Shown here in pieces: positions 40,475 to 46,647 of a stretch of DNA of 64,000 nucleotides. Source of the stretch: Thiohalospira halophila DSM 15071 (lineage in GTDB: Bacteria; Pseudomonadota; Gammaproteobacteria; Thiohalospirales; Thiohalospiraceae). The stretch is taken from positions 186,001-250,000 of the forward strand of contig NZ_FOMJ01000002.1 of the NCBI RefSeq assembly GCF_900112605.1, in the 5' to 3' direction. A program made the position numbers and the translations under genes. Each line of letters begins with the position of its first letter. Position 1 is the stretch's first letter. Below the pieces are notes generated by a model. That model had not been told where the DNA came from and did no database searches. It saw nothing but the letters and a program-made list of their open reading frames with translations.

Positions 40475-42055
40475 TTGTACCAATTGCTCGAGAAACGCCT
40501 GGCACGGCTGGAAGAGCTTGGCGAGGTCGGCCGCCCCGACGGCCGCCTGGTGGGCCTGGAGAAGGAGGGCCTGCGGGTGGACCGGCAGGGCCGGATCGCC
40601 GCCACGCCCCACCCGGAGTCCCTGGGTTCGGCGCTCACCAATGCCTGGCTGACCACCGACTACTCCGAGGCCCTACTGGAGTTCGTCACCCCGCCGGCGG
40701 AGTCCGCCGCCGAGGCGCTGGACTTCCTCTGCGATCTCCAGACCTTCGTCCACGAGATCCTGGGGGATGACGAGTTCCTCTGGGCCACCAGCATGCCGTG
40801 TGCCCTCGCAGGCCCGGAGTCCATCCCCATCGCCGACTACGGCCCCTCCAACCCGGGGATGATGAAGACCGTCTACCGGCGCGGTCTGGGGCATCGCTAC
40901 GGCCGGCTGATGCAGGTTATCGCCGGGGTCCACTTCAACTTCTCCCTGCCGGATGCCTTCTGGCGCGCCTACCAGTCGACGGAGGGCGACGCCGGGAGCC
41001 TGCGCGAGTTCCGGGATACCGGCTACTTCGCCATGATCCGCAACCTCCAGCGGGTGGGCTGGCTCATCCCCTACCTCTTCGGCGCCTCGCCGGCGGTCTG
41101 CAAGTCCTTCCTCGCCGGGCGCGGTGCGAGCCTGGAGCCCTTCGACGACCACACCGCCTGGGAGCCCTACGCCACCTCCCTGCGCATGGGGGACATCGGC
41201 TACACCAACACCCGGGAAGACCAGACCGGGGTGAAGGCCTGTTACGACGACCTGGACTGCTACGTGGACAGCCTCCAGTGCGCCATTACCACCCCCTTCC
41301 CCGAGTACGAGCGCATGGGGGTGGAGGTCGAGGGTCGGTGGGAGCAGCTCAACGCCAACATCCTCCAGATCGAGAACGAGTACTACTCCACCGTCCGCCC
41401 CAAGCAGCCCACCGAGGGGCTGGAGATGCCCTCACTCGCCCTGCGCCAGCGCGGCGTCGCCTACGTGGAACTGCGCTCCATGGACGTCAACGCCTGGCAC
41501 CCGCTGGGTGTGGAGGAGGGGCAGCTGCGCTTCGTGGAGGTGCTCATGCTCTTCTGCCTCCTCCACGAGAGCCCGCCCATCGGGCCGGTGGAGCGCCGCG
41601 CCATCGACGCCAACCAGCTGGCCACCGCCCACCGCGGCCGCGAGCCCGGGCTGGCCCTGCAACGGGGCGGGGGAACGGTCTCCCTGCGCGACTGGGCCAC
41701 CGAGGTCCTGGACCACATGGAGGGGGTGGCCGCCTGGCTGGATACCGGCGAGAACGGGACCCCCTACGCCGATGCCGTGGCCGCCCAGCGGGAGCCGGTG
41801 GCCGATCCCGAGGCCACTCCCTCGGCCTGCATGGTCCGGGAGATGCGCGAACGCGGCGAGGGCTTCTTCGAGTTCGCCCTGCGGCGCTCGCGCAGCTTCC
41901 ACGAGGCCTACCGCGAGCGACCGCTCACCGAGGAGCGTCGGGCCCTGTTCGAGGACGAGGCCCGGCGCTCCCGGGAAGCTCGCGCGGCCGCCGAGGCGGC
42001 CGACGAGGGCTCCTTCGAGGCCTTCCTGGCGCGCTACTTCAGCCAGGCCGGCTAG
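40475..42055 (+). CDS. gshA: Glutamate-cysteine ligase (class I)
   Basis: A 526-residue GshA similar in length to the E. coli enzyme (518), catalysing the first step of glutathione synthesis. GRLVGLEKEGLRVDRQG, DYSEALLEFVTPP, MPCALAGPESIPIADYG and RGLGHRYGRLMQVIAGVHFNFS are class I signatures. The start is TTG at 40475 with ACGGAGGAGC upstream; no closer ATG precedes the conserved LEKRLARLEELG. Glutathione made here would serve the monothiol glutaredoxin and the hydroquinone reductase in this window. Confidence 0.95.
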   Translation: MYQLLEKRLARLEELGEVGRPDGRLVGLEKEGLRVDRQGRIAATPHPESLGSALTNAWLTTDYSEALLEFVTPPAESAAEALDFLCDLQTFVHEILGDDEFLWATSMPCALAGPESIPIADYGPSNPGMMKTVYRRGLGHRYGRLMQVIAGVHFNFSLPDAFWRAYQSTEGDAGSLREFRDTGYFAMIRNLQRVGWLIPYLFGASPAVCKSFLAGRGASLEPFDDHTAWEPYATSLRMGDIGYTNTREDQTGVKACYDDLDCYVDSLQCAITTPFPEYERMGVEVEGRWEQLNANILQIENEYYSTVRPKQPTEGLEMPSLALRQRGVAYVELRSMDVNAWHPLGVEEGQLRFVEVLMLFCLLHESPPIGPVERRAIDANQLATAHRGREPGLALQRGGGTVSLRDWATEVLDHMEGVAAWLDTGENGTPYADAVAAQREPVADPEATPSACMVREMRERGEGFFEFALRRSRSFHEAYRERPLTEERRALFEDEARRSREARAAAEAADEGSFEAFLARYFSQAG

Positions 42056-42853: not shown

Positions 42854-43312
42854 CTAGCCGCCGAAGCGGCGACGCAGCCAGTGGTCCACCGACAGGCGCC
42901 CGGCCCCCAACAGGATCAGCGGCAGCAGCATCACCGAATACATGAGCGCAAGCTTGTAGCCGTTGTCGCAGACGTTGTAGCCGTGGCCGGCGTGGACGCT
43001 GTACCAGGCCACCAGGGTCAGGATGAGCAGGGCCACGCCGACGTAGCGCGTGGCCAGCCCCACCACCAGGGCGATGGCCCCCAGCAGTTCGCTCCAGGTG
43101 GCCAGGAACCAGGAGATCTCCGGCGGCACCACGTTGAAGGGGAAGGGGAACGCCCCCTGGATCTCGGCGAACCAGTTGGACCCGGTGAACTTCATCCAGC
43201 CCGATTCCCAGTACTCCCAGGCCAGGAGCAGGCGCAGGCCCAGCGGGGCCAGGGCCACGCCGACCCGGTCCAGCTGATCGTGCAGCCCCTGCACGTGGTG
43301 GATAGCGCTCAT
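42854..43312 (-). CDS. DoxX-family membrane protein of the bufferin operon
   Basis: A 152-residue protein with four membrane helices and DoxX features (GLRLLLAWEYWESGWMKFTG, WSELLGAIALVVGLATR). DoxX proteins commonly end bufferin/Hvf operons, where the role may be in redox or copper handling at the inner membrane. Here the start overlaps the stop of the DUF2063 gene as ATGA, and the gene is the fourth and last of the operon. A single Cys (YNVCDNG) faces one side of the third segment. The assignment rests on both sequence and gene order. Confidence 0.87.
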   Translation of the reverse strand: MSAIHHVQGLHDQLDRVGVALAPLGLRLLLAWEYWESGWMKFTGSNWFAEIQGAFPFPFNVVPPEISWFLATWSELLGAIALVVGLATRYVGVALLILTLVAWYSVHAGHGYNVCDNGYKLALMYSVMLLPLILLGAGRLSVDHWLRRRFGG

Positions 43313-44106
43313 GGGGACTCCTCCTCGTCTTGGTTGGCGGTGGCTGGTGCGATGCCGGCGATGATGCCCCGATCCCGGAGGTCGGCGAGGATGTCGGTGC
43401 CGGCGGCGATGATGGGGTCGGGATCGGTATGCCCCAGGGAGCGGGCCAGTTCGGCAAGGACCGTCCGGCCGGGGATCCCGGGGGCCGCTGACAGCCCGTC
43501 CAGCAGGGCCAGGGTCGCCGGCGTGGCGGCCAGGAAGCCCACCTGGTCCGCACCGTCCCGGTGGACGATGACCCCCGTGGGCTCGGCCGGCGGCGTCCCG
43601 GGCTGGTACTCCGGTCCCAGCCGGGGGACCGGCCAGGTATAGCGGGCCCACCGGACCGCCGCCGCCAGGACCGGGGCCCCCGCCAGGAGGTCCCCCGGAA
43701 CGGCGGCCGGATCCTCTTCGCCGGCGTGGGCGACCTCGATCTCCAGCCACTCGTAGTGGGCCAGTTCCACCAGGAAGGGGGGCTCGTCCGCCAGCGCCGG
43801 GCGCTCCGGCCGTTCCAGCCAGGTCAGCAGTTCCCGGGGGAGTTCCGGAAAGAGCGGGGTGGTGGGCCGGTGGTCGCGGAACCAGGCGCGGATGAGGCAG
43901 GTCCAGCGCTTCTCCCCCAGGATGGCGTGGCAGACCGGATAGGTGTCGGCCAGCATCCCGCGCAGGTTGTTGAAGAAGAGGTCGCGATAGACCCCCATGC
44001 GCCGGTCCGGGACCCCGGCGGGCGCGGGCGCCCGCTCCGGATCCCGGATGTGGTCGGCGAAGGCGCGCAGCTGGCGGGCGAGGGGGTCAGGCGCCTGCGT
44101 GGACAC
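43309..44106 (-). CDS. bufC: DUF2063 putative MNIO partner protein
   Basis: A 265-residue protein with the DUF2063 pattern: [48 protein letters not shown] and [13 protein letters not shown]. In HvfC/BufC it partners the DUF692 oxygenase and binds the precursor peptide. I chose GTG at 44106, with GGAGGAG seven bases upstream inside the end of the DUF692 gene; this gives a 20-base overlap. A longer reading has no ribosome site. The C-terminal half ([13 protein letters not shown] onward) is the variable winged-helix-like part seen in the family. Confidence 0.87.
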
Positions 44107-44950
44107 GGGGCTCCTCCGGCTCGGCATCCCCGGCGGTCGCCTGGCGGCGGCGGATCGCCTCCACCTCGTCCAGCAGTTCCGGTAGCGGCGGCAGGTTGAA
44201 GTCCCGCTCCAGCAGGGTGGGGCGGGGCCCCAGGCGCCGGTAGGCGTGCTCCAGCAGGGCCCAGACCGGGTCGATGACGGGGGCGCCGTGGGTATCGATG
44301 ATGAGGTCTTCGGCCTCGCGGTAGTGGCCGGCCACGTGGAGGTAGGCCACTCGCTCCGCCGGCAGGCCGTCCAGGAAGGCACGGGCGTCGTAGCCGTGGT
44401 TGGTGGCGTTGACCCAGACGTTGTTCACGTCCAGCAGCAGGTCGCAGTCAGCCTCCTCCAGCACCGCGTTGATGAAGGCGAGCTCCCCCATGCCGGCCTC
44501 GTGGGTGGCGTAGTAGGAGACGTTCTCCAGGGCGATGCGCCGACCGAGGATCTCCTGGACGGTGCGAACGCGGCCGGCGACATGGTGGACCGCCTCCTCG
44601 GTGAAGGGCAGCGGCATGAGGTCGTAGAGGTGGCCGTCGGCGCTGCAGTAGGAGAGGTGTTCGCTGTAGCCGTGGAAGCCGTGGACGTCCAGGAAGTCGC
44701 CCACCCGGGCGACGAAGTCGGTATCGAGCGCCTCCGGCCCGCCGATGGAGAGCGACAGGCCGTGGGCGATGAAGGGATGGCGCTCGGTGAGCTGGCGGAA
44801 GGTACGGCCGGGGCGGCCGCCCAGTCCCATCCAGTTCTCCGGCGCCACCTCCAGGAAATCGGGGCCGGGCGCGGGGGGCTCGAGCAGGTCGTCGGCAATG
44901 GCGCGACGCAGCCCGAGCCCCGCCCCGGTAATGCCCTCGGGGCGGTTCAT
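44087..44950 (-). CDS. bufB: MNIO (DUF692) multinuclear iron oxygenase modifying the bufferin precursor
   Basis: A 287-residue TIM-barrel enzyme of the DUF692/MNIO family (MbnB, TglH, HvfB). Candidate iron ligands lie in [40 protein letters not shown] and YLHVAGH. Members oxidise Cys in precursor peptides, making thiooxazole or oxazolone/thioamide groups that bind copper. The gene lies 15 bases after the Cys-repeat peptide and overlaps the DUF2063 gene, the standard order. No clear ribosome site precedes the ATG at 44950, so translation may be coupled to the peptide gene. Confidence 0.93.
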
Positions 44951-44965
44951 GACAAGCCCGGGGTT

Positions 44966-45316
44966 TTAGCGGCTACCGCCGCACTTGCCCTCACCGCAGC
45001 GGCCCTCGCCACTGCTCTTGTTGCCCTCGCCGTGCTGGCGCCCCTCGGCGGAGCCGCCGCAGCGCCCCTCGCCCTCGTGCTTGCGCTCCCCCTCGGCGGA
45101 GCCCCCGCAACGGCCCTCGGCATTGCGCTCGCGCTCCTGCTCGGCGGAGCCGCCGCACCGGCCCTCGGATTGCGCGACCTGGTAGCCGCTGCCGAGATCC
45201 GTGAGACCGAAGGGGTTGGCCCCCGTGTCGGCGCTGGCACTGCCGGCGGCGAGGCCGGCGGCGAAGGCGGTGCCCAGGGCCGCACTGACGGGTTTGATGG
45301 ATTTGCGATCGCTCAT
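44966..45316 (-). CDS. bufA: Bufferin precursor peptide with EGRCG/EGKCG repeats
   Basis: A 116-residue secreted precursor. The signal peptide ends at about residue 29 (GSASA). The bufferin-type linker NPFGLTDLGSGYQVAQ follows. Four EGRCG units have Cys54, Cys70, Cys86 and Cys107, and the last unit is EGKCG with Cys112. The first three repeats share EGRCGGSAE at exact 16-residue spacing. In known bufferins the Cys of EGKCG is modified by the MNIO enzyme to bind copper. GGAGGAGCC precedes the ATG at 45316. It heads bufABC-doxX and lies 53 bases after a TetR gene in the same direction. Confidence 0.92.
   Translation of the reverse strand: MSDRKSIKPVSAALGTAFAAGLAAGSASADTGANPFGLTDLGSGYQVAQSEGRCGGSAEQERERNAEGRCGGSAEGERKHEGEGRCGGSAEGRQHGEGNKSSGEGRCGEGKCGGSR
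44978..45166 (-). repeat. Tandem coding repeats of the bufferin core
   Basis: Codons 51-113 hold repeated units encoding EGRCGGSAE-type segments; DNA identity between the first three units is high. The copy number could vary between strains by slippage. Confidence 0.75.
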
Positions 45317-45369: not shown

Positions 45370-45984
45370 TCAAGCAGTCGCGGTCGGGGCTGTCGAGCGC
45401 GGCGGCAGCAGCGTCAACAGCTCGGTTGCCAGCTCGCGCAGGATCTCCGGCGCCGGCTGCCGGCGCTGGTAGACGCGCAGGCCGTAGACCGCGGCGATGA
45501 GCGTGCGCGCGAGGCGCGCCGTATCCCGGTCGGCCTCCAGCTGGCCGGCCTTGCGGGCGGCCTCCAGGGCGCCCTCCAGCCGCTCCTCGATGCCGCTGAA
45601 CATGGCGTCCACGCGCTGGCGCAGCTCGGCATCGTCCAGGGCATCGGCCTCCAGGACGGTGTTCACCATCAGGCAGCCCCGGGCCCGGTCGTCGGCAATG
45701 GCGGCCTCGGCGACCCCCTCCAGGAAGCGGCGGGCCCCTTCCAGGGGATCCGGGGCGGTGGCCAGCGCCTCCTCCACGGCGTCGCGGGTACCGGCGTAGT
45801 AGCGCTCCAGCACCGCCAGGAAGAGTTCCCGCTTGCCGCCAAAGGAGCCGTACAGGCTCCCCGGGCGCAGGTCGGTGGCGTCGCTGACATCGCGCATGGA
45901 GGTGGCGTGGAAGCCGTGGCTCCAGAACAGCTCGGTGGCGCGGTCCAGGACCGTTTCGGGGTCGTAGCTCTTGGGTCGACTCAT
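45370..45984 (-). CDS. TetR/AcrR-family regulator
   Basis: A 204-residue TetR protein. The DNA-binding helix-turn-helix covers about residues 10-55 (LFWSHGFHATSMRDVSDA, LRPGSLYGSFGGKRELFL). The C-terminal ligand domain carries GCLMVNTVLEAD with a Cys, as in reductive-stress or electrophile-sensing members. I used the ATG at 45984. A palindrome at 46002-46017 directly upstream is a likely operator shared with the divergent AhpD-like gene. The bufferin operon follows 53 bases downstream in the same direction, so this regulator may also control it. Confidence 0.92.
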   Translation of the reverse strand: MSRPKSYDPETVLDRATELFWSHGFHATSMRDVSDATDLRPGSLYGSFGGKRELFLAVLERYYAGTRDAVEEALATAPDPLEGARRFLEGVAEAAIADDRARGCLMVNTVLEADALDDAELRQRVDAMFSGIEERLEGALEAARKAGQLEADRDTARLARTLIAAVYGLRVYQRRQPAPEILRELATELLTLLPPRSTAPTATA

Positions 45985-46001
45985 GGCTGAATCGTAGCAC
46001 C

Positions 46002-46054
46002 TTGAACGACCGTTCAACAAGGTCCAGACTGGGTAATTCGTAACAGTCGTTCAA
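46002..46054. promoter_or_regulatory. TetR operator and extra half-site
   Basis: TTGAACG-AC-CGTTCAA (46002-46017) is a perfect 7+7 palindrome. A further half-site, CGTTCAA, lies at 46048-46054, just before the ribosome site of the AhpD-like gene. Both are in the 84-base divergent region. Confidence 0.82.
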
Positions 46055-46068
46055 GAAAGGAGAGAGCC

Positions 46069-46647
46069 ATGAACCAGACCGCGACCCGGACCGAGAACCG
46101 CACCCACTGGCCCGTCCACGACGCCACCACCGCCCCCGAGGCGGCGAAGCCGGCCCTGGAGGCGGTACGCCAGCGCTACGGGGCGATCCCCAACATCTTC
46201 GGTGTCATGGCCGGTAGCCCCGCGCTGCTCAACGGCTACCTGGCCCTTACCGAGGCCTACGAGGGCGGAGAACTGACCCCGGCCCAGCGCGATGTCATCC
46301 TTATCGCCGCCAGCATGGTCAACGGCTGCGGCTACTGCGTCGCCGCCCACAGCACCATGAGCAGCCTCCCGGAGGAGGAACTCAAGGCGCTGCGCGCCGG
46401 CGAGCCCCTCTCGGACCCGGCCCTGGAGGCGCTGTGCCGGGTCACCCGGGCGGCGGTGGAGCGCCAGGGCTGGGTGGACGACGCCCTGCGCTCCGAGCTG
46501 GATGCCGCCGGGCTCCCCGCCTCGGCCGCCGGGGAGATCCTGGTGGGCGTGGCCCTGAAGACGATGTCCAACTACATGAACCACCAGGCGGGGACCCCCC
46601 TGGACTCATTCCTGGCCGCCTGGGCCTGGGAGCCCCGGGCGGAATAG
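46069..46647 (+). CDS. Carboxymuconolactone decarboxylase / AhpD-like alkylhydroperoxidase
   Basis: A 192-residue protein of the CMD/AhpD fold. The active-site motif CGYCVAAHS has the CxxC-x3-H set of peroxidase-active members, and RYGAIPNIFGVMAGSPALL is a family signature. AGGAGAGAGCC precedes the ATG at 46069. It is divergent from the TetR gene, whose operator lies between them. It likely reduces peroxides or handles an electrophile that also releases the repressor; the substrate is not known. Confidence 0.9.
   Translation: MNQTATRTENRTHWPVHDATTAPEAAKPALEAVRQRYGAIPNIFGVMAGSPALLNGYLALTEAYEGGELTPAQRDVILIAASMVNGCGYCVAAHSTMSSLPEEELKALRAGEPLSDPALEALCRVTRAAVERQGWVDDALRSELDAAGLPASAAGEILVGVALKTMSNYMNHQAGTPLDSFLAAWAWEPRAE

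Follow-up and report, generated by a model that had tools for sequence, protein, structure and literature searches.

A four-gene cluster on the minus strand of the window (the whole 64-kb stretch of DNA that was analysed) is genuine: a complete oxazolin-type operon of ordinary make-up, whose precursor is of a rare, arginine-dominated kind. On its gene content, family, motif make-up and enzyme residues, it very probably encodes a complete HvfABCX route to an oxazolin-type captophorin, in which arginine is accepted next to the cysteine and all five cysteines are expected to be modified. By analogy with homologues, HvfC would present the leader of HvfA to HvfB, a multi-iron oxidase that would turn each cysteine of E-G-R/K-C-G into a 5-thiooxazole (-4 H per site); the peptide would leave via Sec into the periplasm, there bind Cu(I), and presumably serve a copper-stress function.

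Operon layout and family assignment

The operon and the genes adjoining it upstream are arranged as follows:

45316-44966, minus strand: hvfA-like precursor, 116 aa, with five CG sites and a leader profile match
44950-44087, minus strand: hvfB-like MNIO maturase, 287 aa (PF05114, NF003818, 3BWW)
44106-43309, minus strand: hvfC-like DUF2063 (PME1/RRE) partner, 265 aa, GTG start (PF09836, PF22106, NF050145, 3DEE)
43312-42854, minus strand: hvfX-like DoxX membrane protein, 152 aa, ATG start (PF07681, NF050144)
45370-46020, minus strand: TetR-family regulator (PF00440, 51.5 bits)
46069-46647, plus strand: carboxymuconolactone-decarboxylase (CMD) family gene, divergent from the TetR gene

As originally predicted, the four-gene operon is complete and tightly coupled, spanning exactly 42854-45316, with a gap of 15 nt between the precursor and MNIO genes, overlaps of 20 nt (MNIO/DUF2063) and 4 nt (DUF2063/DoxX, at ATGA), and GGAGG-type ribosome sites 5' of genes 1, 3 and 4 (precursor, DUF2063 and DoxX). 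On its downstream side the operon is followed by a convergent gene of the OmpA family. The upstream TetR gene shares the operon's strand and ends 53 nt from the precursor, and its product is a possible but unproven candidate regulator of the copper-peptide operon; among the loci surveyed below, hvfB is preceded by a TetR homologue in the same orientation at one other only (L071), and the TetR-hvf linkage is thus not conserved. On the coding strand, neither a promoter scan of the operon region nor folding of the TetR/precursor gap (53 nt) gave a signal exceeding chance, and no promoter-like site was seen. The TetR/CMD-family divergent pair (45370-46647) adjoins the operon in an arrangement with hvf that is not kept in relatives; a glutamate-cysteine ligase gene (glutathione synthesis; 40475-42055) lies on the opposite strand, two genes from the thiol-modifying operon.

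The MNIO protein matches PF05114 in Pfam (348.7 bits), passes the cutoff of the HvfB model NF003818 (421 bits; cutoff 360), fails that of the BufB model NF050167 (271 bits; cutoff 310) and matches the solved structure 3BWW (E=1.7e-72); for its predicted maturase fold, the matches to 3BWW and to the NCBI models are decisive. The partner protein matches PF09836 (DUF2063) and PF22106 (NGO1945_C), passes the HvfC cutoff (NF050145, 258 bits; cutoff 142) and matches the solved structure 3DEE (E=2.6e-7), which, together with 3BWW, is one of the two structures tied to MNIO-PME1 clusters in PMC12668002. The product of the last gene matches PF07681 (DoxX) and passes the HvfX cutoff (NF050144, 143.7 bits; cutoff 80). 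The genome holds one MNIO copy and no DUF2282 protein (PF10048), a family that a control search finds in Caulobacter vibrioides; on these grounds, a further MNIO/bufferin system elsewhere in the genome was rejected.

Since the HvfB, HvfC and HvfX cutoffs are passed, the BufB cutoff is failed and DUF2282 is absent from the genome, these matches place the operon among the captophorins in the oxazolin branch (HvfABCX, Buf_EGKCG), and not with the strict bufferins. The original prediction of a bufferin operon therefore stands as regards a complete MNIO RiPP operon, and gives way as regards the family, which is HvfA/oxazolin and not DUF2282 or 6/12-Cys. That a strict bufferin of either kind is encoded here is highly improbable: gene order and enzyme superfamily are shared, and Buf_EGKCG enzymes are described as inseparable from bufferin enzymes up to AST 75 (PMC12452194), but the maturase scores below the BufB cutoff while passing that of HvfB, the genome lacks DUF2282, and EGxCG motifs make up the precursor. 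The bufferin label is loose but not senseless, as both branches are grouped in published work, where the oxazolin branch is regarded as bufferin-like under the name Buf_EGKCG/oxazolin (PMC12452194) and ‘captophorins’ serves as an umbrella over bufferins and the oxazolin branch (PMC12668002).

An arginine-dominated precursor

The precursor (N-terminus MSDRKSIKPVSAALGTAFAAGLAAGSASADTGANPFGLTDLGSGYQVAQ; 116 residues) features a Sec-type signal peptide and a conserved NPFxxxxLxSGYxxA leader segment. In a search with a profile built in this analysis from the leaders of other HvfA-type precursors, this precursor being left out, its leader scored 64.1 bits against 8.7 for the best of 1000 shuffled leaders, indicating an HvfA-type leader and not a chance ORF. 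No Pfam match was found for the precursor, which falls under the cutoffs of both NCBI HvfA models and so belongs to the operon type only, not to those precursor families: NF050137 (15.7 bits; cutoff 19.5), named for KCGExKCG occurring twice, has no two such tandems to match here, and the HvfA equivalog NF050188 gives 12.2 bits (cutoff 95).

The predicted count of five cysteines, in four EGRCG and one EGKCG, is confirmed from the sequence, the EGRCG cysteines being Cys54, 70, 86 and 107 and the EGKCG one Cys112; Cys54, 70 and 86 are isolated, and Cys107 and Cys112 form the one C-terminal tandem. The mature peptide is arginine-rich throughout (9 R, 3 K). The canonical EGKCG pair with which the precursor had been compared is not borne out, as relatives' precursors carry 2 to 14 CG sites with a median of 8 among the 78 for which a start codon was read, and 82% of these exceed five; Haemophilus influenzae HvfA has six (PMC13419390) and FonA seven (PMC12668002). 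The suggestion that five sites predict more copper per peptide is unsupported, five lying below the median; gonophorin, moreover, the one related case whose stoichiometry is considered in PMC12668002, is described there with one or two Cu, so that site number is no simple measure of copper.

Arginine dominance at motif position 3, the residue before CG, is rare, whereas non-lysine precursors are not. Precursors were taken upstream of hvfB at the best 30 loci of a class genome sample and at 80 further loci (L001-L110), yielding 84 distinct precursors with recognisable motifs and 625 xxxCG sites, at which position 3 is Lys in 498 cases, Ser in 55, Ala in 26, Thr in 11 and Arg in nine; Asn, Gln or Glu also occur in relatives. 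Four of the nine arginine sites belong to this precursor (4/5 of its own sites), any arginine at all is present in 5/84 precursors, and the next highest share is 2/6 (L003); 17/84 precursors have lysine at less than half of their sites. The two same-family relatives with the operon (L005, L008) carry Asn and Thr, not Arg. A pattern search for two neighbouring EGRCG, covering CGN codons and a limited spacing, matched 1/369 genomes of the class, namely this one. The precursor is thus dominated by EGRCG, as predicted, and rare in being so; the string EGRCG was not found in the available text of the literature on these peptides.

Variation of other kinds was also seen in the survey. A Met-rich precursor type, in which EGSCG, EGMCG or EGACG replaces most EGKCG, is present at L057, L071, L075, L105 and L108 (Methylomonas and relatives, methanotrophs). 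EF-hand-like DxDxDG stretches occur between EGKCG groups in the precursors upstream of hvfB at L009, L017, L045 and L091; in the Buf_EGKCG/EF-hand chimaeras described in PMC12452194, the EF-hand is placed only at the C-terminus.

The peptide-wide shift to arginine probably reflects drift under weak constraint at position 3 in a lysine-poor, 70% GC genome, with lysine kept at the second cysteine of the tandem. Proteins of the window have K/(K+R)=0.18 and (D+E)/(K+R)=1.35 at ~70% GC, the HvfB-like maturase has zero lysine, and composition probably contributes to the shift. GC drift as the sole cause was rejected, since other high-GC genomes that are equally lysine-poor (L017, L045 and L063; K/(K+R) 0.12-0.15) keep lysine in the motif, and composition is therefore not sufficient. 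This retention, along with the somewhat acidic window proteins, as in halophiles, would favour an adaptation selected in this organism, whether to high salt or for charge tuning next to the copper site; such selection is nonetheless unlikely, given that one species is concerned, that the shift affects spacers as well as motifs, that the same-family relatives carry Asn/Thr in place of arginine, and that L017 is as acidic (1.34) with lysine at 6/6 sites. Drift under weak constraint remains the preferred explanation.

Recognition by the maturase and extent of modification

The original proposal that arginine next to the modified cysteine tests the recognition rule of the enzyme has largely been answered by FonBC, and by the Ser, Ala, Thr, Asn, Gln and Glu found in relatives. 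According to PMC12668002 (section 11), FonBC in vitro tolerates a change of the position-3 residue in both repeats of FonA to Ala, Arg or Thr, while Phe or Glu there severely impairs processing. FonB Arg15, Arg16 and Phe250 are there described as substrate-facing and Asp249 as the catalytic base (PMC12668002); the counterparts identified by position and local motif, R15, R16, F251 and D250, hardly vary among 109 relatives and are retained in this maturase. A compensating change in the maturase was rejected, as this maturase is canonical at the positions singled out in FonB and the rare residues W179 (in two others of the 109, both with lysine motifs) and A182 show no link to arginine. The tolerance of FonBC, the varied natural position 3 and the canonical maturase residues together leave no open recognition test; with the question mostly answered in a homologue, full modification is the outcome expected here, arginine being a conservative swap whose acceptance would extend modification to all five cysteines.

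The survey suggests that lysine is constrained by place in the tandem pair and not at every site. When CG sites are classed as second (another CG site five residues before), first (five after) or isolated (neither), lysine occupies 233/241 second sites (97%), 199/221 first sites (90%) and 66/163 isolated sites (about 40%). Within-precursor shuffling predicts 214.2 +/- 2.6 second-site lysines against 232 observed (reached in 0/5000 shuffles), one fewer than the 233 above because this test, before classing, drops any CG site lying three residues or fewer from a fragment start. Among 25 representatives whose maturases are <70% identical to each other, by which shared ancestry is only partly removed, 69 were observed against 63.4 +/- 1.6 expected (3/5000), with nine precursors up and one down (p=0.021). 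The present precursor fits the pattern, with R, R, R at isolated sites, R at the first and K at the second (Cys112). Because ancestry is partly removed and some isolated CG sites are maybe non-substrates, the tandem-second excess is only a lead; the pattern was not found stated in the available text of the literature. It is conceivable, if doubtful, that position 3 is no general recognition residue, that lysine matters chiefly at the tandem-second cysteine, perhaps for docking or as the start, with isolated sites tolerant, and that this precursor offers a natural test of tandem-first order.

Some doubt attaches to the isolated motifs of Cys54, 70 and 86, since a one-repeat FonA peptide was left unprocessed by FonBC and a two-repeat one processed (PMC12668002). 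This result, and the occurrence of lysine mainly in tandem pairs, would agree with modification of the tandem only (Cys107 and Cys112), the three isolated EGRCG cysteines being unmodified thiols or disulfides. We consider such partial modification improbable: the one-repeat construct differed also in length and context, the precursors of L024, L026 and L044 have mostly isolated motifs, which would make little sense if inert, and FonBC also processes repeats whose third motif residue is Arg, Ala or Thr (PMC12668002). Modification of all five cysteines is therefore preferred, and a natural arginine-type substrate of an oxazolin maturase could confirm in nature the result obtained with an engineered FonA peptide.

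Comparison with known systems

Bufferins 1 and 2 (DUF2282; 6/12-Cys; PMC12452194) share with this operon the enzyme superfamily, the PME1 partner, DoxX and, as predicted here from homologues, thiooxazole and copper, but are of other precursor families, and the maturase here falls under the BufB cutoff. Bulbicupramide (mmrABC, Microbulbifer; PMC12538549) is similar in its EGKCG repeats (5-8 Cys) and MNIO/DUF2063 pair, and differs from the present precursor in its lysine motifs and two-Cys cassettes. Fontiphorin (fonABC, Fontimonas thermophila; PMC12668002) likewise combines an MNIO and a PME1 partner with a Lys-Cys type precursor, although FonA has seven sites, its natural motifs being EGKCG/EAKCG in the stretches quoted, compared with five mostly EGRCG sites here. 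Oxazolin (hvfABCX, non-typeable Haemophilus influenzae; PMC13419390) shares the four genes, the Sec-type leader and the EGxCG motifs; its HvfA carries six EGKCG cysteines in three tandem pairs, whereas the precursor described here carries five, in one tandem and three isolated motifs, four of them with arginine.
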